Origin: Rhodococcus sp. W8901
GTDB lineage: Bacteria > Actinomycetota > Actinomycetes > Mycobacteriales > Mycobacteriaceae
NCBI RefSeq assembly: GCF_013348805.1
Contig: NZ_CP054690.1
Coordinates: 2,418,001 to 2,482,000, forward strand
Direction: 5' to 3'
DNA length: 64,000 bases
Numbering within the stretch: position 1 is the stretch's first letter; each line of letters opens with the position of its first letter. The translations under genes were made by a program, and so were the position numbers. The notes under the pieces were generated by a model. The model searched no databases, was not told the DNA's origin, and saw nothing but the letters and a program-made list of their open reading frames with translations. Shown piece after piece: positions 50,645-59,850 of the stretch.

Positions 50645-50769
50645 GGGCGGCCTCCCATCCGAGGATTCCTTCAGCCGGGACGCTACGCCGAATTCGTCGG
50701 GTTCGGTCGCGATGGCGCCGGGTAGTAGCATTGCGCCGATTCCGGGGGATGGAACGTAGGGGGAGTTCG

Positions 50770-51138
50770 GTGAGTGGGGGCTGCACAGATCTCATTGCGG
50801 AGATCGACGCTTTCTATCAGGGCTTCGGGCAGCCGAACGCGCTGTTCGACGCGTTTCGCCGGGCACCGCTCTTGGTGCCCCTGACGGCCGAGAACCGAGT
50901 GTGGAGCTCCGAGATCCGTGATCTCGGATGGGTTCCCGCTTTCACCAGTGAACGCGAGTTCGCGCGGCACGCTCTCACACGTGGTGAACGCATCGAGGCG
51001 CGTTACCACACACTGTTCGGTTGGCGGATCGTCGAGCAGGTCCTGCCCAGCTTCGACCGGCAGACCGGGGTGGTCGTCGACGTCGCTGGTGCTCGCCCGA
51101 TGGCCTTTCCGCCCGATCTGGGTGCGGCGCGATCATGA
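50770..51138 (+). CDS. SseB-like protein at the head of a type VII toxin operon
   Basis: This 122-residue protein resembles the SseB N-terminal domain: FRRAPLLVPLTAENRVWSSEIRDLGWVPAFTSEREFARH. Members are common near type VII substrates in actinobacteria and are thought to act as chaperones or accessory factors; that role is inferred. The GTG at 50770 has GGGGGAG five bases upstream. Its TGA overlaps the ATG of the next gene (ATGA), so the two are coupled. Confidence 0.8.
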   Translation: MSGGCTDLIAEIDAFYQGFGQPNALFDAFRRAPLLVPLTAENRVWSSEIRDLGWVPAFTSEREFARHALTRGERIEARYHTLFGWRIVEQVLPSFDRQTGVVVDVAGARPMAFPPDLGAARS

Positions 51139-51752
51139 GTGCAGGGCTCGAGGTCGATCCCGTCGTTCTGCGGCAGGCGGCGCAGGGGATCACCGGGATC
51201 ATCGACTCGCTGTCCGAGCTCGGGATCGGTGAGACGGCCGCGGCGGGTAGGGGTTTCGCGATGCTGGCGCTGTCGCCGATGGAGGCGGGATCCGAGGCGG
51301 TTCAGAAGAGTCTCGAGGAGTACGCGGAGCGGTGGTCGTGGGGCGTGCGCAACCTCGTCCGGTCGGCGAACGAGATTGCCGAGCTGCTCGATCTCCAGGC
51401 CGGGCGCTATCACATGATGGACCAGCAGCTCTCCGACACCGTCAAGACCGCATGGACCCATGTCGCGGGAAATCCGCACCTCGGTGAGGAGGAGATCAGC
51501 GAGCGGTCCTGGGGCGAGACGTTGGCGGACAACCCGGTCAACAACGTGCTCCATCCCGACTACAGCGGGGAGTCGTTCGACGCCGCGATGGACACGATCC
51601 GGACCAACAACGAAGTGATCTCGGCGGTCGGCCCGCAGGCGTTTGCCAACGTGTCGCCGGTGGTCGCGGACGTTCTCGGTGTGGACGTTGCAAGCGGTTA
51701 CCACACCGGCGCTGCCGAGCAGGCGGCGTCGGTCATGCATGACCAGACCTGA
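51135..51752 (+). CDS. EspC-like (ESX secretion-associated, WXG-type) protein
   Basis: This 205-residue protein has an N-terminal ~100 residues in the helix-turn-helix hairpin style of EspC/DUF2580 type VII proteins (LEVDPVVLRQAAQGI, then ERWSWGVRNLVRSANEIAELL with a WxWG turn and a later YHMMDQQL). A longer, less structured C-terminus follows. It is probably co-secreted with, or a chaperone for, the RHS toxin encoded 38 bp downstream. The start overlaps the SseB-like stop. Confidence 0.75.
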   Translation: MSAGLEVDPVVLRQAAQGITGIIDSLSELGIGETAAAGRGFAMLALSPMEAGSEAVQKSLEEYAERWSWGVRNLVRSANEIAELLDLQAGRYHMMDQQLSDTVKTAWTHVAGNPHLGEEEISERSWGETLADNPVNNVLHPDYSGESFDAAMDTIRTNNEVISAVGPQAFANVSPVVADVLGVDVASGYHTGAAEQAASVMHDQT

Positions 51753-51790
51753 CCGACGGCCAGGGCTGGGGCAGGGCGGGGGGAGAACTG

Positions 51791-52375
51791 ATGGGCTATG
51801 GGTGGGACGACGTCATCGGAGGCCTGGACAAGGTCGGCGACTTCGTCGAGGACGCGGCCGAAGGAGTTGTCGAAAAGGCCGGCCAGGTGGCCGATGCCGG
51901 TCTCGACGGCCTGGCGGGTGTCGCCCGCGGCCTGGGCGCGGACGGGGTTGCCGACGTCCTCACGGACCTCGGCGACCGGGTTGCCAGCAGCACCGGTGGT
52001 GCAGTCGACGAGCTCGAACTCGGCCAGACCACCGATCCGCGGGAACTGATCCGTGGCGATGCCGGTGCGGTCAACGAGGCCGTCACCACGCTGACCGAGC
52101 TGGGCACGAACATCGGGTCCACCGGGACCTCCCTGCGCACGGTCGACGCCGCCGGCTGGACCGGCGACGCGGCCGATGCGTTCCAGGCCGTCTACGACAG
52201 GCAGCCGGCGCTGTGGCAGGACGCTGCCGATGCGATGACGTCCGCCGCGCAGTCGCTGACCTGGTGGGCGAACACGATCGAGTCGGCGCAGGCGCGCGCA
52301 GCCGACGCGATCGCGCGATGGGAGCAGGCCGCGACAACGCCGCGTCACAGATCGCCGGTCAGTTGGCGGCCCTGA
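51791..52375 (+). CDS. N-terminal (type VII secretion) part of a frameshifted RHS toxin
   Basis: The ATG at 51791 opens MGYGWDDVIGGLDKVGDF and runs through a helical WXG100-like module. DAAGWTGDAADAFQAVY carries the W-x-G turn, and the matching helix is SLTWWANTIESAQARAADAIARWEQ. After WEQ near 52327 the frame diverges into a short arginine-rich tail and stops at 52375. The expected continuation (RDNAASQIAGQLAAL) is in the next frame. So this is the targeting half of one gene whose body is at 52318-56652. If real, the product is truncated and untethered from the toxin. Confidence 0.8.
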   Translation: MGYGWDDVIGGLDKVGDFVEDAAEGVVEKAGQVADAGLDGLAGVARGLGADGVADVLTDLGDRVASSTGGAVDELELGQTTDPRELIRGDAGAVNEAVTTLTELGTNIGSTGTSLRTVDAAGWTGDAADAFQAVYDRQPALWQDAADAMTSAAQSLTWWANTIESAQARAADAIARWEQAATTPRHRSPVSWRP

Positions 52376-55300
52376 CCGAATCGGCGCCCGAGGAACCGCC
52401 GTTCACGCAGCGGATGGCCGCGAACTTCGGGGACCTGACCGACGTGATCGAGCACGGCAGCGTCAACTTCACGTCCGGTCTCGTCACCGGCGTCACCGGA
52501 ATCGTGCAGTTCGTCCGACAGGTCAACCCCGTCGATCCGTACAACCTCAGCCACCCGGCGGAGTACGTCGAAGGACTCAGCGACCTGACGACCGGCCTCG
52601 TGGTGGTGGCGGCGGATCCCGGGGCCGTGGTGGACGCGTTCCTCGCCGACGCACGTGCCAACCCGTTCGAGTTCGCGGGAGCGCTCACCGGAGACGCGCT
52701 GCTGACGGCGGCGACGGGTGGCGCCGGCGCCGGAGTGGCCGGTGCGCGGACATCCATGCACGCGGTCGAGTTGGCGAGTGACCTGGGGAGCGGCCTGCGG
52801 ACCGCCGACCATGTGGCCGACGCGACCCGCCACGTCCCGACGCCCGACGTCCCACGCATGGAGGCCCCAGGGCTCGACTCTCCGAGAATCGATGCGCCGG
52901 AAATCGATTCACCATCGTCGCTGCACGACACGGACCCAGGCACCCCGGACCAGTCCACCCCCGCGCACGACCAGGGCTCGACCGGCGCCGGCCACGACCC
53001 CGACTTCACCCGTCCACCCGAGGGCGAAAACCCGAACCCACAGCATCTCGCCGAATCCGACTCCGGCGCGGCGCGGACCGCGGAGGACAACGGCCCGGTG
53101 AGCGACCAGACGAGCAACCAGGTCACCGAGTGCCAGGACCCCGTCGATGCCGCCACCGGCGAGTTCCTGCTGCCCGAAACCGATCTGACGCTGCCCGGCG
53201 TGCTGCCGCTCGTGTTCGGGCGGCGACACCGCTCGAGCTACGGATTCGGCCGGTGGTTCGGCCCGAGTTGGTCGTCGACGATCGACATGCGGGTCGTGGT
53301 CGAGGAATCCGGTGTCACATTGCTCGCCGAGGACGGCGTGATGGTGGTCTATCCGCACCCGGCGGTGGGCGAACCCGTCCGTCCGAGGCAGTCGCTGCAG
53401 CGCTGGACGCTCTCGCGGACCGAGACCGGCGGCTACGCGGTGCACGACCCGGACCGGTCGCTGACCTGGCACTTCGCCCCCAAACCCGAACTCGGCGGGG
53501 TCGATTCGGCGCTGGGCAACATCGCCATCAGCGCGATCACGGACCGATTCCGCAACCGCATCCGCTTCCACTACGGCCCGGACGGTGCGCCGATCGAGGT
53601 ATCTCACACGGGCGGCTACCGCGTGCTCGTCGACGCCCGGGGCGGACGGATCGGATCGCTGTCGGTGATCGACCCGGAGTCCGGTGCCGCGGTGGCGGTC
53701 CGCCGCTTCGGCTACGACGGCGGGGACCTCACCTCGGTCACCAACGGTTTCGGCGGAGTGACCCGCTACACGTACGACGCCGACGGTCGGATGCTCTCGT
53801 GGCAGGACGCCAACGGCAACCGGATGGTCAACACCTACGACGCCGCAGGACGGGTAGTGGTCCAGAACGGCACCGACGGCATCATGTCCGCCCGCTTCGA
53901 CTACGTGCCGACGGCCGACGGGCCGGGGTCGGTCACGGTTGTCACCGACTCGCTCGGGGCGCAGACCGCGCACGGGTTCGACAGCGACCTGCGTCAACGG
54001 GACCTGATGTCGCCGAACGGCTCTCGCGCGCACACGGACTACAACGAGCGCCGCGAGCCGCTGCGCGTCACCGGTCCGGACGGGGCCGTGACCCGGTACC
54101 GCTACACCGCCGACGGCGACGTCGCGCAGATCACCCGGCCGGACGGTCACTCGATCACCGTCGACTACGCCGGACCGCGCAGGCCGGTTGCCGTCCACCA
54201 GGTCGACGGCACGGTCGTCCGCCAGGACTGGGACGCCGCGGACAACCTGGTGGCGGTGACCGACGCCGGGGGAGCGCGGACCGAGTACACCTACCACCTG
54301 ACCGGGGCGGTGTCCTCGGTCACCGAGCCGACGGGCGCCCGCACCCTCGTGGACTGCGACGACGCCGGGCTGCCCGTCGCCGTCACCGACCCGATGGGGG
54401 CGACGACGCGCATCACGCGCGACGCGTTCGGGCGCACCGCCTCGGTGACCGACCCGACGGGTGCGGTGACGCGACTGCGGTGGTCGCCCGACGGCAGGCT
54501 CCTGGAGCGGACGCATCCGGACGCCGCAGTCGAGTCGTGGGAGTACGACGGCGAGGGAAACCTCGTGCGGCACACCGACCCCGTCGGCGCGACGACGTCG
54601 TACACGTACGGATCCTTCGATCTTATGGCCTCGCGGACCGACCCGGACGGCTCGGTCACCGCCTACACGTGGGACACCGAGCGGCGCCTGACGTCGGTTA
54701 CGAACCCGCTCGGCCAGACCTGGTGGTACGAGTACGACGCGGACGGGCGTCTGGTCGCCGAGTCCGATTTCAACGGTGCGCGAACCGCATACACGCACGA
54801 TGTCGCGGGACGAGTCGCAACGGTGACGTCCGCGACCGGCGTGACGCGCCACCACTCGCACGACATCCTGGGCCGCCTGCTCGACGTCACCGCCGACACC
54901 GGCGAGTTCCGGCGCTACACGCACGATCTGGCTGGACGGACGCTGTCGGCAGTCAGTGGCATCGGCGGGGATCCGATCCATACGGTCGAGTTCGACTACA
55001 CGGCTGCGGGGCAGTTGGCACGGCAGAGCGTCGACGGAGCGGGCGAACTGTGCTTCGACCACGATCCGTTCGGGCGGCGCGTCGAGCGGCGTTCACACAC
55101 CGGAGGTGTCACCGGGTGGCGCTGGAATGCGGCGGGCCTCGTCGCTTCGGTGGCGGTCGACGGGCACTCGATCGGTCTCACCTACGACGCGCGCGGCGCG
55201 GTCACCGGGTGGAGAGCGGGAGAGTTGGGGATCACCCGCGGCCACGATTCGCGCGGGCGGCTCACCATGCAGGAAGCGGTGGCGCATCCGGCGTCGTCGC

Positions 55301-56652
55301 TGAGCTTGAGTTTCGATTCCGGTCAGGCCTCCGCTTCGCGGGTGCTGCGGTCCGACGTGTTCGACTACCGTCCGGACGGCTATCTGGCCGGGCAGACGAC
55401 GACCACCGATCGGGTGTTGCGCCGGCAGTTCGAGCTGGATGCGGCGGGCCGAATCACATCCGTGGTCGACGACGGCACGGCGGTGGAGCGGTACGCGTAC
55501 GACGCGCTGAGCAACATCGTGACGCAGACTGCCACGGCGGAGCGGGATGACGCGGGCCGACGGGAGTACCACGGGACGCTGCTGGTGCGCGACGGCCGCA
55601 CGCGGTACAGCTACGACGATGCGGGCAGGCTGATCCGCAAGGTCACGACGCGACTGTCGCGGAAACCGGATGTTTGGCAGTACCGGTACGACGCGTTCGA
55701 CCAGATGGTCGAGGTGACGACGCCGGACGGGGTGCGGTGGAGGTACAGCTACGACGCCCTGGGCCGGCGCACCGCCAAGTCCCGTATGGCCGCGGACGGT
55801 TCGGTGGCGGAGCGGACGGTGTTCACCTGGGATGCAACGACGTTGGTGGAGCAGTCCACGTCCGATCGCGTCACCCGGTGGACCTATCAGCCGGGAACTC
55901 ACACGCCGCTGACGCAGGCCTCGGTGCCGGCGGTGGATCTGGCGGATCAGGCCTCGGTGGATGCCGAGTTCTACGCGATCGTGACCGACCTCGTCGGCAC
56001 GCCGACCGAACTGGTCGATCCGGCGACGGCCGACGTCGCGGGGCGGTCGGCGATGTCGTTGTGGGGGAGCACGTCCTGGGCCGGCGCCGCCGACACCCCG
56101 ATCCGGTTCCCCGGCCAGTACTTCGACGACGAGACGGGCCTGCACTACAACCTGCACCGCTACTACGACCCCGTCACTGCGCGTTACGCGACGACGGATC
56201 CGCTCGGACTCGCGCCGTCGCCGAATCCGAACAGCTACCCGCACAACCCGACGGTGTGGTCGGATCCGCTGGGGTTGGTACCGTGCCCGGACAACCGTGA
56301 GTTCGAGAGTAGGGAATCTGCCCGTGATGCTGCCTTTGATCGGGCGGGAATTGCCCAGGGTGCGACGCCGGACGCCGCTTGGGAAGTTGGTGGAGATGTA
56401 ACACGCCGCGGGTTCCCTGGGTACCTATACTCTGAGAACCAGGGTTCGTGGGGGAATTACGCACAGTTTGAAACTGCGAATGGTTCGAGGGTGGTAGTGG
56501 AGCACACATCCGATCCGATTCAACCTCCACATTTCCATGCGGGTCAACCAAAGCTGGATTCAGGGCGAAACTTCGTGAACTTCGGATGGGACTCCGGCTC
56601 CGAGTTGGAGCGGTACGCGCCAGTCGATAGGAAGCATCACTTCTACTATTAG
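52318..56652 (+). CDS. RHS-repeat polymorphic toxin body with C-terminal HNH-type (Tox-HNH-EHHH-like) nuclease
   Basis: This is a 1444-residue open frame from an ATG that exists only because of the frameshift. In order: an alanine-rich linker, a Pro/Asp/Ser-rich spacer, a DUF6531-type entry (DPVDAATGEFLLPETDLTLPG), then YD/RHS repeats forming a cocoon-like shell. The RHS core follows (LHYNLHRYYDPVTARYATTDPLGL). The last ~120 residues are the variable toxin: SARDAAFDRAGI, then VVVEHTSDP, PPHFHAG and the ending KHHFYY. The spaced E-H, HFH and HH residues recall HNH/endonuclease VII toxins. The toxin would cut DNA in rival cells. Confidence 0.82.
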   Translation: MGAGRDNAASQIAGQLAALTESAPEEPPFTQRMAANFGDLTDVIEHGSVNFTSGLVTGVTGIVQFVRQVNPVDPYNLSHPAEYVEGLSDLTTGLVVVAADPGAVVDAFLADARANPFEFAGALTGDALLTAATGGAGAGVAGARTSMHAVELASDLGSGLRTADHVADATRHVPTPDVPRMEAPGLDSPRIDAPEIDSPSSLHDTDPGTPDQSTPAHDQGSTGAGHDPDFTRPPEGENPNPQHLAESDSGAARTAEDNGPVSDQTSNQVTECQDPVDAATGEFLLPETDLTLPGVLPLVFGRRHRSSYGFGRWFGPSWSSTIDMRVVVEESGVTLLAEDGVMVVYPHPAVGEPVRPRQSLQRWTLSRTETGGYAVHDPDRSLTWHFAPKPELGGVDSALGNIAISAITDRFRNRIRFHYGPDGAPIEVSHTGGYRVLVDARGGRIGSLSVIDPESGAAVAVRRFGYDGGDLTSVTNGFGGVTRYTYDADGRMLSWQDANGNRMVNTYDAAGRVVVQNGTDGIMSARFDYVPTADGPGSVTVVTDSLGAQTAHGFDSDLRQRDLMSPNGSRAHTDYNERREPLRVTGPDGAVTRYRYTADGDVAQITRPDGHSITVDYAGPRRPVAVHQVDGTVVRQDWDAADNLVAVTDAGGARTEYTYHLTGAVSSVTEPTGARTLVDCDDAGLPVAVTDPMGATTRITRDAFGRTASVTDPTGAVTRLRWSPDGRLLERTHPDAAVESWEYDGEGNLVRHTDPVGATTSYTYGSFDLMASRTDPDGSVTAYTWDTERRLTSVTNPLGQTWWYEYDADGRLVAESDFNGARTAYTHDVAGRVATVTSATGVTRHHSHDILGRLLDVTADTGEFRRYTHDLAGRTLSAVSGIGGDPIHTVEFDYTAAGQLARQSVDGAGELCFDHDPFGRRVERRSHTGGVTGWRWNAAGLVASVAVDGHSIGLTYDARGAVTGWRAGELGITRGHDSRGRLTMQEAVAHPASSLSLSFDSGQASASRVLRSDVFDYRPDGYLAGQTTTTDRVLRRQFELDAAGRITSVVDDGTAVERYAYDALSNIVTQTATAERDDAGRREYHGTLLVRDGRTRYSYDDAGRLIRKVTTRLSRKPDVWQYRYDAFDQMVEVTTPDGVRWRYSYDALGRRTAKSRMAADGSVAERTVFTWDATTLVEQSTSDRVTRWTYQPGTHTPLTQASVPAVDLADQASVDAEFYAIVTDLVGTPTELVDPATADVAGRSAMSLWGSTSWAGAADTPIRFPGQYFDDETGLHYNLHRYYDPVTARYATTDPLGLAPSPNPNSYPHNPTVWSDPLGLVPCPDNREFESRESARDAAFDRAGIAQGATPDAAWEVGGDVTRRGFPGYLYSENQGSWGNYAQFETANGSRVVVEHTSDPIQPPHFHAGQPKLDSGRNFVNFGWDSGSELERYAPVDRKHHFYY
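52319..52345 (+). other. Frameshift junction in the RHS toxin gene
   Basis: The frame changes between GAGCAG (52322-52327) and CGCGACAAC. Restoring one base (for example GGCCC for GGCC at 52327-52330) would give WEQARDNAASQ and join both halves. No X-XXY-YYZ slippery heptamer is present, so a one-base deletion or sequencing error is more likely than programmed shifting. Confidence 0.75.
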
Positions 56653-56663
56653 GTGGGTCTGTT

Positions 56664-57101
56664 TTGAATCTGGAGCAACGCCAGAAGATTCGAAATTCTG
56701 GGCTGGAGATCGTCGCGGAAGGGGGAACGCCGGGTAGCCTGGATCCAGTGAAGGCGTGGAAGATGTCGATCAATCTGGACTCGAAGCCAGTCGCCATCAT
56801 TTCTGACGATAAGTCGGACGCTGCAGCCTTGGTTGATAGGGCCTGGCAGGGGGCAGCTAAAGATCATGGTCTCTTCAGTGGCGACGGTACTTTTCTGCTG
56901 AGCATTCCCGGTGATCCTTTTCATTCCACTAGATGGTATCGAGTCCGCATTAGAGGAGCCGTGAAGATGGCGGAGTTCTTTGTTGACGGAAACGGTTATC
57001 CGGAATTTGTCACAGCGTCCGTCGATGGGTATCCAGTCGTCGGTGTTTCTTCAGAAGAAGATGGAACATGGATTCTTGCATTCGATGGGCCAGATCGTTG
57101 A
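56664..57101 (+). CDS. Probable cognate immunity protein of the RHS toxin
   Basis: This 145-residue soluble protein matches no family that I recognise. It starts 11 bp after the toxin stop at TTG 56664, with AGGTGG eight bases upstream. Local G+C is clearly lower than in the RHS body, as is usual for exchanged toxin-immunity tips. Acidic patches (ISDDKSDAAALVD, SSEEDGTW) suit binding to a basic nuclease. The immunity role is inferred only from position and size. Confidence 0.72.
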   Translation: MNLEQRQKIRNSGLEIVAEGGTPGSLDPVKAWKMSINLDSKPVAIISDDKSDAAALVDRAWQGAAKDHGLFSGDGTFLLSIPGDPFHSTRWYRVRIRGAVKMAEFFVDGNGYPEFVTASVDGYPVVGVSSEEDGTWILAFDGPDR

Positions 57102-57445
57102 ACTCCGCAACTTGGCATCTCTATCCATCTGACTCTTCTGGGATTAGATAACATCCTGGCGGGGGAAGGTGAGCGTTGCCCCGGGTATTCTGATACTGAC
57201 CCCTGCGGTCTGTTCCTCGTGATGGCTGGACGGTGCTTCCAACGAGCCCGAACAACGAATTCGCGATTACCTGGCACCGATTCCTGCGGCACCGCCCGAT
57301 CAGTCGGCCGCGCGCAGGCACGGATCCGATCCGGTGCCTGTGCGCTGGCAGAGTGGCGGGTCCGCCGCACCCGGTGCTCACGGACGCATCTTGTCGACGA
57401 CCCTCGCGGACCCACGCGCCACATCTCAACACACCGAACGGCGAT
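57102..57445. other. Gene-poor stretch downstream of the immunity gene
   Basis: No supported gene. The stretch holds the hairpin at 57312-57345 and short open frames without ribosome binding sites or family resemblance. Confidence 0.5.
57312..57345 (+). terminator. Imperfect hairpin, probable terminator of the toxin operon
   Basis: GCGCAGGCACGGATC pairs with GATCCGGTGCCTGTGCGC apart from small bulges. The loop region GGATCCGATCC closely resembles that of the terminator at 58170-58209, suggesting duplicated cassette ends. Confidence 0.55.
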
Positions 57446-57602
57446 CATTATGGCTATTAGCGAGAGAATCTCACTGAATCGGGAATCGGCCGAATCCTTC
57501 CCTATTCTCGCGGATCTCGCTCGTCGCGGTCCACGGATCGGTATTGTTGGTGTCGAGATTCGTCGCGAGGGAGCTCTGTCGATATCTCTGCCAACGCATT
57601 GA
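57446..57602 (+). pseudogene. Regulator-gene fragment, copy A
   Basis: This segment encodes RESAESFPILADLARRG and VGVEIRREGALSI before a stop. It aligns with 59545-59710 (RESAQPVPVLEDLAHRR, VGIEVRGEGAQSI), which runs on into an AraC-type helix-turn-helix. Copy A lacks the HTH. It looks like a decayed duplicate. Confidence 0.5.
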
Positions 57603-57694
57603 GCCACGTTGCTCCCTCTGTCTTGGCCGGTCGACTGGTCCTCGTCGGAGTGTCCCCGCCACTTGCTCCGCTCAATCGACTCGGCGCTCTCACG

Positions 57695-58156
57695 ATGAAA
57701 CGTGAATCTCTATGGAAGCGTTGGGAGAACGATCGAGCAGTGCTGCCGCCCGGAGATCGGCACGACTTCCAGTTCGATCGGAACGACGACCTGCTGCAGT
57801 TCGGTGGCTGGTTGACGACCGATACGGCCAACTTCGTTGCTGCCGTTGAAGTCAGTCGTGACCGCTCAGCCGTGTGTCTTCTCCTACCCCCAGAGTGCGC
57901 GATCGATGAACTCGAGCGCGTGATCGAAGGATTTCGCCGGGTGTCTGTCGACAGGAACTCGTTGGTCAGGCATTTCGTTCCGCTTGTTCTCGAGGGCGCG
58001 ATGCTTGTTCGGGGGTTCGGGGGTTCGGGGGTTCGGGGGTTCGGGGGGTTCGACGACCGGGTCGTCGGCACGGATGTCTTTGCGGAGGAGGAGGTTCTCG
58101 ACGCTATTCAATCGGGTGTCGAACACTGGATGTCCGACGGAGGGACGGCACCCTAG
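57695..58156 (+). CDS. Orphan immunity-like hypothetical protein with a frame-sensitive tandem repeat
   Basis: This open frame of 153 residues (MKRESLWKRWENDRAVLPPG...) is not assigned to any family. Its C-terminal part contains IDELERVIEGFRRVSVDRNSLV and DVFAEEEVLDAIQSGVEHW. Five near-identical GGGGGTTC units interrupt it at residues ~106-119. The frame continues upstream to 57599 without a better start, and no ribosome binding site is evident, so the start is uncertain. The size, position in the toxin island and following terminator suggest an orphan immunity gene; this is inference. Confidence 0.45.
   Translation: MKRESLWKRWENDRAVLPPGDRHDFQFDRNDDLLQFGGWLTTDTANFVAAVEVSRDRSAVCLLLPPECAIDELERVIEGFRRVSVDRNSLVRHFVPLVLEGAMLVRGFGGSGVRGFGGFDDRVVGTDVFAEEEVLDAIQSGVEHWMSDGGTAP
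58009..58052 (+). repeat. 8-bp tandem repeat GGGGGTTC (about five copies)
   Basis: GGGGGTTC is repeated head to tail, with the last copy carrying one extra G. The unit is not a multiple of three, so gain or loss of a copy shifts the surrounding frame. It encodes GFGGSGVRGFGGF here. Confidence 0.8.
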
Positions 58157-58169
58157 GTTGATCCGACGC

Positions 58170-58209
58170 CCGAGCGCCGGCACCGATCGGATCCGGTGCC
58201 GGCGCTCGG
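58170..58209 (+). terminator. Perfect 15-bp hairpin terminator in the toxin island
   Basis: CCGAGCGCCGGCACC pairs exactly with GGTGCCGGCGCTCGG around GATCGGATCC. It follows the 57695-58156 frame by 13 bp. Confidence 0.75.
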
Positions 58210-58250
58210 TTGACGATGTGCCGCTGGTCAGTTGAAGTCGCGGGGCGTTT

Positions 58251-58397
58251 CGCAACCTTGTTCGCCGCGTCCGTCAGCTGCGGGGTGAGCTGGTCGATAA
58301 CCCACGGGGTTGCGAGGACGCTGGTCTGGCTCAGGCTGGCGATGATCTTGATAGGGCCACTGCGGTGCCGGGCTTGACCGCGCCGAGGGAGGTGCAC
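58251..58397 (-). pseudogene. Relic of the C-terminus of a siderophore-binding-protein gene
   Basis: On the minus strand LSQTSVLATPWVIDQL and PQLTDAANKVA match the end of the intact gene at 63112 (LSRTGVLATPWVIDRI, PQLSEAAKRVA): 19 of 28 residues are identical. DNA similarity continues toward 58397 but in a different frame. The rest of the gene is missing. This is a truncated duplicate about 5 kb from its parent or sister copy. Confidence 0.75.
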
Positions 58398-58555
58398 AAT
58401 GGGCGATTCGATGACTTCAAGTTCGCGCATGACCCATTTTTTCGATACGGAAGATGCTAGATTCTAATGCTCGAAAAGTGTGTCAACGTCGATACCGTCA
58501 AGATAGTGGACAACAGCATGGCGAACTGCAACGACCAATACAGGAGCATTATCCA

Positions 58556-59065
58556 ATGGACAGGCTAGATCCTGCTGCAAGTATGACATCAAACGCGCGA
58601 CCGTGGGTTTTTGCGGGTGAGTCAGACGAACTCGACCCGTATGTCCAAGCTATTTCGGCGCTACCGGATTGTTTGGTCGTGCGTTTCGATGGCAAAGATA
58701 TGCAAACCCTTGATGACCTCTTCGAATTCTATGGGCGGGCCTTCGGTTTTCCGGCCTAGTTCGGGAAGAACTGGCCAGCATTTGATGAGTGTATGTCAGA
58801 TCTGAATGACACGCCATCGCCGGTGTATCTCGTGGTCGTCGAAGAGGCGGAGAGGTTGCTGGATGATGATTCTGATGAATTGTCAACATTCCTGAAGGTC
58901 TGTTCGGCGATTGGCCGATATTGGTCCAGCAGAATTGGACTGGGCTCGCTTTGGGGTGGCGGAGAAGTTGCATTCAATACGCTGATTCTATTCAGCCGAC
59001 CGTCAGGTCCAGTGCTCGACACCATTAGATCAGATCATGAAATTCTGACACTACGTGATGGTTGA
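58556..59065 (+). pseudogene. Barstar-family immunity gene interrupted by an in-frame TAG
   Basis: The frame starts MDRLDPAASM (AGGAG upstream) and reads VVRFDGKDMQTLDDLFEFYGRAFGFPA, then TAG at 58757-58759. It goes on in the same frame as FGKNWPAFDECMSDLND and VYLVVVEEAERLLDDD. Barstar relatives have a tyrosine at the stop position (FPxYFGxNWDAxxECL), so one base change from TAC/TAT explains it. Barstar binds and inhibits barnase-type ribonucleases. The complete remaining frame (to TGA 59065) suggests a recent lesion, suppression or a sequencing error. Confidence 0.8.
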
Positions 59066-59544: not shown

Positions 59545-59850
59545 TAGCAATAGCGGGAGATTCTTACTTAATCGGGAATCGGCCCAACCCGTTCCTGTTC
59601 TCGAAGATCTCGCTCACCGTCGTGCATGAGTCGGTGTTGTCGGTATTGAGGTTCGTGGAGAGGGGGCGCAGTCGATACCTGGTGCGGTTGCTGTCGCCGC
59701 TGACACGCTGAGCGTCGCCGGCGGACTATTGCGTAACCACCGACTCGCCGTTTCGGAGGTCGCCCGGCGGGTCGGTTACACCAATACTGGAGCGTTTTCG
59801 GACGCATACCTACGCGCCTGGGGTAGGCGTCCAGCGCCATACGTACCTCG
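59545..59850 (+). pseudogene. AraC-type regulator remnant, copy B
   Basis: In one frame RESAQPVPVLEDLAHRRA is followed by TGA, then VGVVGIEVRGEGAQSI and, further on, LLRNHRLAVSEVARRVGYTNTGAFSDAYLRAWGRRP. The last part is a clear second helix-turn-helix of an AraC-family activator. The N-terminal and first-HTH regions are missing. It shares a ~150-bp segment with copy A at 57446. Confidence 0.6.

Follow-up and report, generated by a model that had tools for sequence, protein, structure and literature searches.

What do two small genes, one SseB-like and one EspC-like, contribute to the RHS toxin encoded directly behind them in Rhodococcus sp. W8901, and by which route would that toxin leave the cell? 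The locus lies in a 64,000-nucleotide stretch of contig NZ_CP054690.1 (positions 2,418,001 to 2,482,000), all of which we call the window; the genome is a single contig of 5.71 Mb, and its nearest named relatives are Prescottella defluvii and P. agglutinans. Our answer, to which we assign a probability of about 0.68, is that the operon encodes a polymorphic toxin of the type VII (ESX, T7SSa) kind together with a three-part export unit of its own, in which the SseB-like protein would act as chaperone. This reading is carried by the gene order, by co-occurrence in three search directions, by the split of the export motifs over two proteins, by the exchange of tip and immunity gene, and by the ESX genes of the same genome. 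The class of module proposed by an earlier sequence-only reading of this DNA, a type VII-type polymorphic toxin, is supported by the T7SS_signal domain, the ESX genes and the exchangeable tip with its immunity gene. The features of the operon are as follows.

50770-51138, +, SseB-like gene, GTG start, 122 aa
51135-51752, +, EspC-like gene, ATG start, 205 aa
51408-51422, +, motif Y92-x-x-x-D96 of the EspC-like protein, from the family alignment
51791-52375, +, T7SS_signal (WXG/PPE-like) export-domain open reading frame (ORF), 194 aa
52157-52165, +, WxG motif, residues 123-125 of the export domain, in 73 of 73 rows
52318-52350, +, frame break, from the alignment with genomes G001, G002, G003, G060 and G058
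52318-56652, +, toxin body: linker, DUF6531, RHS repeats, RHS-associated core and tip (PF20148, PF05593, TIGR03696)
about 53137-53352, +, DUF6531
about 56059-56277, +, RHS-associated core
56422-56649, +, predicted Tox-HNH-EHHH nuclease tip (PF15657)
56664-57101, +, candidate immunity protein, TTG start, 145 aa, no named family

All genes run in the same direction. The SseB-like and EspC-like ORFs share an ATGA overlap, 38 nt separate the EspC-like gene from the export-domain ORF that starts at 51791, and 11 nt lie between the end of the RHS ORF at 56652 and the last ORF. The direction, place, overlap and short gaps given earlier were all recovered, with the correction that the toxin occupies two ORFs. 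In comparisons with three relatives, the ratio of non-synonymous to synonymous substitution rates (dN/dS) was 0.13-0.33 for SseB, 0.15-0.20 for EspC and 0.06-0.12 for the export part. Purifying selection on the parts, together with an order that recurs in several genera, argues that the operon is beyond chance.

The trio of SseB, EspC and export domain was traced from each of its members. In an EspC-anchored database search, for which the best 80 (79 loci) of 444 relative stretches were kept, an SseB ORF was found upstream in 74 of the 79 loci and a T7SS_signal ORF downstream in 72. Among the seven loci without the latter, L041, L062 and L069 carry the domain in an ORF running off the contig, L076, L082 and L100 end inside or at most 100 nt from EspC, and L059 has a degenerate stretch only. 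The hosts belong to Nocardia, Rhodococcus, Prescottella, Millisia, Gandjariella, Saccharothrix, Streptomyces, Kitasatospora and Actinacidiphila. When 101 genomes were searched with EspC, 13 matched, the window's included, and ten of the other 12 have the trio, which makes ten of the 100 genomes searched besides the window's; L036 and L037 are EspC-like matches without SseB or RHS, the latter with a weak T7SS_signal match. The lack of co-occurrence in other genomes that the sequence-only reading had named as speaking against the module was not what the searches gave.

Searching with SseB gave matches in 14 of 296 genomes of the class, and EspC plus T7SS_signal followed behind it in 18 of 21 loci, or 17 of 20 if the window is not counted; the exceptions are L171, L176 and L182. 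The export-domain profile PF21725 matched 32 of 101 genomes, from which 30 loci were examined plus nine further stretches, one of them a repeat of L129. Both SseB and EspC were present in all 11 loci where the PF21725 match starts at position 1-3 with at least 174 bits (10 of 10 without the window). The other 19 loci had an EspC-profile ORF in ten cases and SseB in one (L133), and the nine further stretches had EspC in five and SseB in none. On these counts SseB tends to accompany export domains that are extended at the N terminus and EspC proteins that are long. The tendency is not strict: L140, L129 and L155, with PF21725 starts at 6-15, have EspC and no SseB.

The sequence-only reading is to be corrected in that the pair goes with the T7SS_signal domain and not with RHS. 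RHS followed in the same ORF for 50 of the 72 T7SS_signal ORFs, in another ORF for four and not at all for 18, namely 17 ORFs plus the truncated 204-aa ORF of L091. Nine of the RHS-less toxins were scanned, and their C termini were Gln_amidase (four), ADPrib_exo_Tox (three), Scabin-like (one) or unnamed (one). Because the pair also accompanies RHS-less toxins, it would belong to the export domain and not to the shell or tip, which points to the SseB-EspC pair serving export and not the warhead.

The EspC-like protein scored 17.9 bits against PF10824, below the cut-off of 23.5, and 35 of 58 members of its family matched this profile at E <= 0.01 (best 2.8e-8). The family alignment comprised the window protein and 57 of 58 non-redundant EspC proteins, the partial L091 being left out. 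At residues 92-96, [YF]xxx[DE] occurs in 52 of the 58 EspC rows, Y...[DE] in 48 and an acidic residue at +4 in 57. Y...[DE] is present in every EspC-type partner from the 14 SseB-less rows, which represent 13 distinct loci; the partner at L133, which has SseB, lacks it. The EspC proteins are 171-237 aa long in 78 loci; those of SseB-less loci are mostly 97-128 aa, with four longer if the first start is taken. The structural model is all-helical and of low confidence. Its residues 4-87 align weakly with the hairpins of CFP10-ESAT6 and PE25, the matches also including unrelated helical chains. On this low-confidence model, a fold unrelated to WXG hairpins, the outcome that had been named as speaking against the module, did not come up. 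The EspC profile had no match at E <= 1 among the sequences of solved structures. We consider the EspC-like protein to be probably a PE-like partner with a YxxxD/E export motif.

The export domain supplies the complementary half. Its WxG at residue 123 is invariant in the 73 aligned rows, and it has no conserved YxxxD/E, the best [YF]xxx[DE] column reaching 19 of 73. For export domains of relatives, PPE matched with 24.8 bits (cut-off 26) and EspB_PPE weakly.

The genome contains one EccB match, beside which lie an EccCa/EccCb protein and an Rv3446c-like protein; EccD and MycP were not identified among the ORFs scanned. We take Rv3446c to be an ESX-4 neighbour. A passage of PMC11217815 names ESX-4 as the only type VII secretion system (T7SS) of Nocardia and Gordonia, and we treat the system of this genome as presumably ESX-4-like. 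A second, weak T7SS_signal/WXG protein (28.6 bits) is encoded elsewhere in the same genome (L154 3077-4198, genome position 166 kb), with no EspC or SseB profile match beside it.

We infer from these data that the T7SS_signal N terminus of the toxin, PPE-like and with the WxG turn, would form a complex with the PE-like EspC-like protein, whose YxxxD/E would be placed after its second helix. Jointly, WxG and YxxxD/E would be the signal by which the EccC ATPase of the single ESX system recognises its cargo for export. The SseB-family protein would remain in the cytosol, where it would hold or steer the EspC/T7SS_signal pair; its contacts might be the additional N-terminal residues of the toxin domain and the long tail at the C terminus of the EspC-like protein. 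Once outside, the RHS shell would take the HNH/EHHH nuclease tip into a neighbouring cell and kill it, and the downstream 145-aa protein would protect the producer.

The copy in the window departs from this scheme at one point. Its export-domain ORF matches PF21725 with 170.7 bits (E 6.4e-50) over positions 1-165 of 241 only, and 136 nt near 52328, at the end of the export domain, are absent from the window and kept in five of five aligned relatives; the export domain and the RHS-tip part consequently lie in different frames. The sequence-only reading had described one gene with a WXG export domain before the RHS shell, a description that fails here and that fits the 50 of 72 ORFs mentioned above. 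In nine of ten relatives with the trio, the toxin is one ORF of 1597-2024 aa, and L031 runs off its contig. In 70 of 72 loci the family profile of the export domain is matched beyond position 215 of 227; the two exceptions are L096, with its long ORF, and the degraded L091, where the ORF ends at profile position 199, compared with 175 in the window.

We lean slightly towards the view that the operon is a wreck in this strain, the deletion having killed export while the tip is retained by chance together with immunity genes that would guard against neighbours. The loss of 136 alignment columns with the break in frame fits this view, as do the broken barstar-like pieces and the tip remnant nearby (see below), the placement of T7SS_signal and RHS in different ORFs at L045, L055, L087 and L108, and the 204-aa export-domain ORF that is all that remains at L091. 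It is opposed by the stretch 52402-56280, which has no stop and a dN/dS of 0.18-0.20; purifying selection on both halves of the toxin would make the lesion either young or an assembly error. The toxin copy as sequenced is probably not exported, because the 136-nt deletion separates the export domain from the body. At L045, L055, L087 and L108 the break points differ from that of the window, and at L034 the RHS match shifts to another frame near its end.

For the export unit as such, the part played by the SseB-like protein is the point that most needs argument. This protein matches PF07179, an N-terminal domain profile, with 30.2 bits (cut-off 21); 40 of 57 family members match PF07179 at E <= 0.01, and no second PF07179 match was found in the window's genome. 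The family alignment held the window protein and 56 of 59 SseB proteins, L092-L094 with their long N termini being left out. Its structural model is a confident alpha/beta fold (predicted local distance difference test score 90.3, predicted template modelling score 0.85), and the PDB matches shown for it include no EspG row. The SseB profile had 14 matches at E <= 1 (best 0.003) among the sequences of solved structures; most are short segments of designed Pizza proteins, the rest a TRIM3 chain and antibody chains. EspG itself is not absent from the genome, since two PF14011 matches lie at 246957-247670 and 4628500-4629189, away from the single EccB locus.

It is conceivable, though we regard it as rather unlikely, that only the EspC-like protein is an export partner, and that the SseB-like protein is no chaperone but a regulator, an anti-toxin of the secretion domain or an enzyme-like helper of the operon. 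No SseB role in type VII secretion, and no SseB-EspC pair, was recognised among the papers listed in literature searches that covered few subscription papers; within two of these lists, SseB turned up in a single paper, on Salmonella. Together with the lack of an EspG row and with the loci that do without SseB (L060, L067, L068, L091 and L116; in L067 and L068 a YbaB/EbfC-like ORF fills its slot), this speaks for such a different role. On the other side, SseB tracks the export domain rather than the tip or RHS, overlaps espC by ATGA (-4) in 29 of 73 loci (with script-chosen starts), and takes a position that parallels that of EsaE in EsaD loci. We therefore consider the SseB-like protein a probable export chaperone. 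Of the two proteins that were said to resemble ESX accessory proteins, SseB is called one in no source known to us, which makes a link between SseB and ESX new and not known.

Three Nocardia loci (L067 8587-8967, L068 8617-8964 and L072 8600-8938) have a YbaB/EbfC-like protein (PF02575) upstream of espC, either in the place of SseB or next to it; in L072 the SseB ORF is 533 nt from EspC. We take these ORFs to be reminiscent of YbaB-like Esp proteins.

To our knowledge, the choice of toxin cargo by type VII machines of non-mycobacterial actinobacteria has been little studied. The closest tested analogue of the export unit is EsaD of Staphylococcus aureus with EsxB, EsxC, EsxD and EsaE (T7SSb). 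As passages of PMC10653861 describe it, small helical partners and a globular chaperone are encoded just upstream of the toxin, the small partners and EsaE bind the transport domain of EsaD, and the partners follow that domain and not the tip. EsaD differs in belonging to a T7SSb of Bacillota, in having three hairpins where one is present here, and in that EsaE has the EspG fold, for which no row is shown among the PDB matches of the model of the SseB-like protein. In the LXG toxins with Lap1 and Lap2 (T7SSb), the parts of PMC9600955 consulted place FxxxD on Lap1 and an LxG turn on the toxin domain; there, however, two helical partners occur with no globular protein, and an LXG domain stands in place of T7SS_signal. 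A signal shared by two partners is known from T7SSa substrates, and the same passages describe it, in the form FxxxD, for Lap1/LXG.

Mycobacterial PE/PPE proteins with EspG, and the EspC-type Esp proteins (T7SSa), likewise have WxG on one partner and YxxxD/E on the other, and the PF10824 relationship and the weak PPE and EspB_PPE matches point the same way. The differences are that SseB instead of EspG is encoded upstream here and that what is carried is a polymorphic toxin accompanied by an immunity gene. The prophage WXG toxins of Mycobacterium abscessus share T7SSa, a WXG N terminus, a WXG100 partner and an immunity gene according to portions of PMC8092301, whose main text contains neither SseB nor EspC, and they differ in being prophage-borne. 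More broadly, sections of PMC12691689 and PMC8092301 describe T7SS toxins of actinobacteria that come with an immunity gene and with either a targeting factor or a WXG100 partner; passages of PMC12356396 concern T7SSb. LrhA, an Rhs toxin of a Listeria T7SSb, has an RHS shell and small helical upstream genes (passages of PMC10327511). Actinobacterial toxins with WXG export, RHS and EHHH tips were tabulated in 2012 (part of PMC3482391), and SseB has no occurrence in the first 300,000 characters of that survey; for both LrhA and the surveyed toxins, SseB is not in the passages seen. The sequence-only reading had called RHS toxins best known from type VI and wall-anchored systems, and type VII delivery with an SseB-EspC pair upstream much less described; a review passage already connects RHS toxins with both T7SSa and T7SSb (PMC11217815).

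The three-gene export unit is real and conserved, of a known kind (T7SS polymorphic toxins) and apparently undescribed. We give even odds to the broader proposal that the SseB protein is a dedicated T7SS chaperone of a new structural class which, with a long-tailed EspC, loads T7SS_signal toxins generally. If so, SseB would fill the role of EspG or EsaE in Nocardia, Rhodococcus, Prescottella and Streptomyces relatives, SseB domains would gain a role in type VII secretion, and loading would extend to RHS, ADP-ribosyltransferase, deamidase and other T7SS_signal toxins. A fixed three-gene unit with one export domain and many warheads would be a small, testable targeting complex, and the trio a genomic marker for actinobacterial toxins and their immunity genes.

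The RHS ORF contains DUF6531 and 14 RHS-repeat stretches, and all ten PF05593 matches in the genome fall within the RHS toxin gene. At its end, the E-H/HFH/HH pattern from which a nuclease had been suggested corresponds to a Tox-HNH-EHHH match of 33.9 bits (cut-off 25) over positions 2-69 of the 69 in the model PF15657. The tip carries EH...HFH...HH and fits the [ED]H, H, H motif given in a table of PMC3482391; we assign it to the Tox-HNH-EHHH family, as a predicted nuclease. Tips are diverse among the relatives, those of 53 RHS toxins forming 26 clusters; ten tips of these clusters were compared with Pfam (E <= 0.001), and four were named (Stv, Tox-ART-HYD1, Colicin_D and Ntox24) and six unnamed.

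The 145-aa protein behind the tip has no Pfam or NCBIfam match at E <= 1 and is present in two of 101 genomes, the window's included. The tip of the P. agglutinans toxin is 69% identical to that of the window, and the ORF overlapping the toxin stop there shares 38% identity with the 145-aa protein. In L044 and L045, more distant homologues (25-28%) take the second place behind a different tip, a position that would be as for orphan immunity. At L053, whose tip is 43% identical, the ORF behind the tip was not matched to the 145-aa protein. The surroundings of the tip contain two further features.

56283-57371, +, tip and immunity gene exchanged as a cassette, without DNA similarity to the P. 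defluvii locus
57372-57460, +, remnant of the displaced older tip, last ~30 codons, P. defluvii type, frame disturbed

Similarity to P. defluvii breaks off at 56282 and returns at 57372, within the final codons of the older tip; over 57372-57480 the DNA identity is 83% with two gaps, and this match spans the toxin stop of L038. The GC content drops from 70% in the core to 56% in the tip and 52.5% in the immunity ORF, and the window's tip and immunity gene have the appearance of a recent cassette. Farther downstream, two adjacent barstar-like pieces (58433-58756 and 58760-59062) correspond to a single ORF that follows the toxin in Rhodococcus sp. HNM0569 (L039). Their barstar match is 20.6 bits, below the cut-off of 23.4, and they look like a broken orphan immunity gene.

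These immunity genes also bear on the target. Protozoa or host cells, and not bacteria, are an improbable target for the RHS toxin: the trio does occur in genera that have animal-associated species, and an HNH tip says nothing about its target, but a candidate immunity gene lies behind the tip, orphan-type immunity pieces lie downstream, and the tip has been exchanged jointly with the immunity gene, the pattern of interbacterial toxins.

That the toxin is split by design, with a restart at ATG 52318 or a frameshift yielding an export domain and an RHS-tip protein that meet after translation, has next to nothing in its favour beyond the in-frame ATG inside the overlap of the two ORFs, against which stand the near-complete export-domain profiles, the single toxin ORFs of nine of ten relatives and a missing stretch that is a deletion and not a slip site. 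A programmed frameshift at the break was considered and rejected: 136 alignment columns kept by five relatives are missing from the window, and no other of the 72 loci breaks there, the degraded L091 stopping 24 profile positions later.

Across the genus, the EspC-like gene is present in four of 14 genomes, and the whole locus lies in a segment that two other genomes lack.

50707-58255, ~7.5-kb stretch missing at the corresponding site in two other genomes of the genus (G009 and G007)

Similarity to G009 and G007 runs up to 50706 or 50701 and picks up again at 58261 or 58256, and in these genomes the distance from the sugar-transporter flank to the downstream segment is 1.3-1.5 kb. This comparison indicates an island, with an occupied site in the window and an empty site in G009 and G007. 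As a check for phage origin, the EspC-like protein was compared with 50,697 phage records and had no match among them. It matched 17 plasmid records, all from Streptomyces and none spanning 80% of the protein; on a Streptomyces plasmid, the NCBI annotation labels the neighbours 'SseB family protein' and 'putative T7SS-secreted protein'.

A 130-nt direct repeat (77%) at 57458-57587 and 59551-59680 flanks the orphan immunity region and matches the sequence directly after the P. defluvii toxin stop; it is likely a trace of cassette insertions. Between the two copies, 57599-58156 holds a 185-aa ORF of an unnamed family, 75-79% conserved in G001-G003, which contains an 8-nt GTTCGGGG tandem repeat at 58007-58052.

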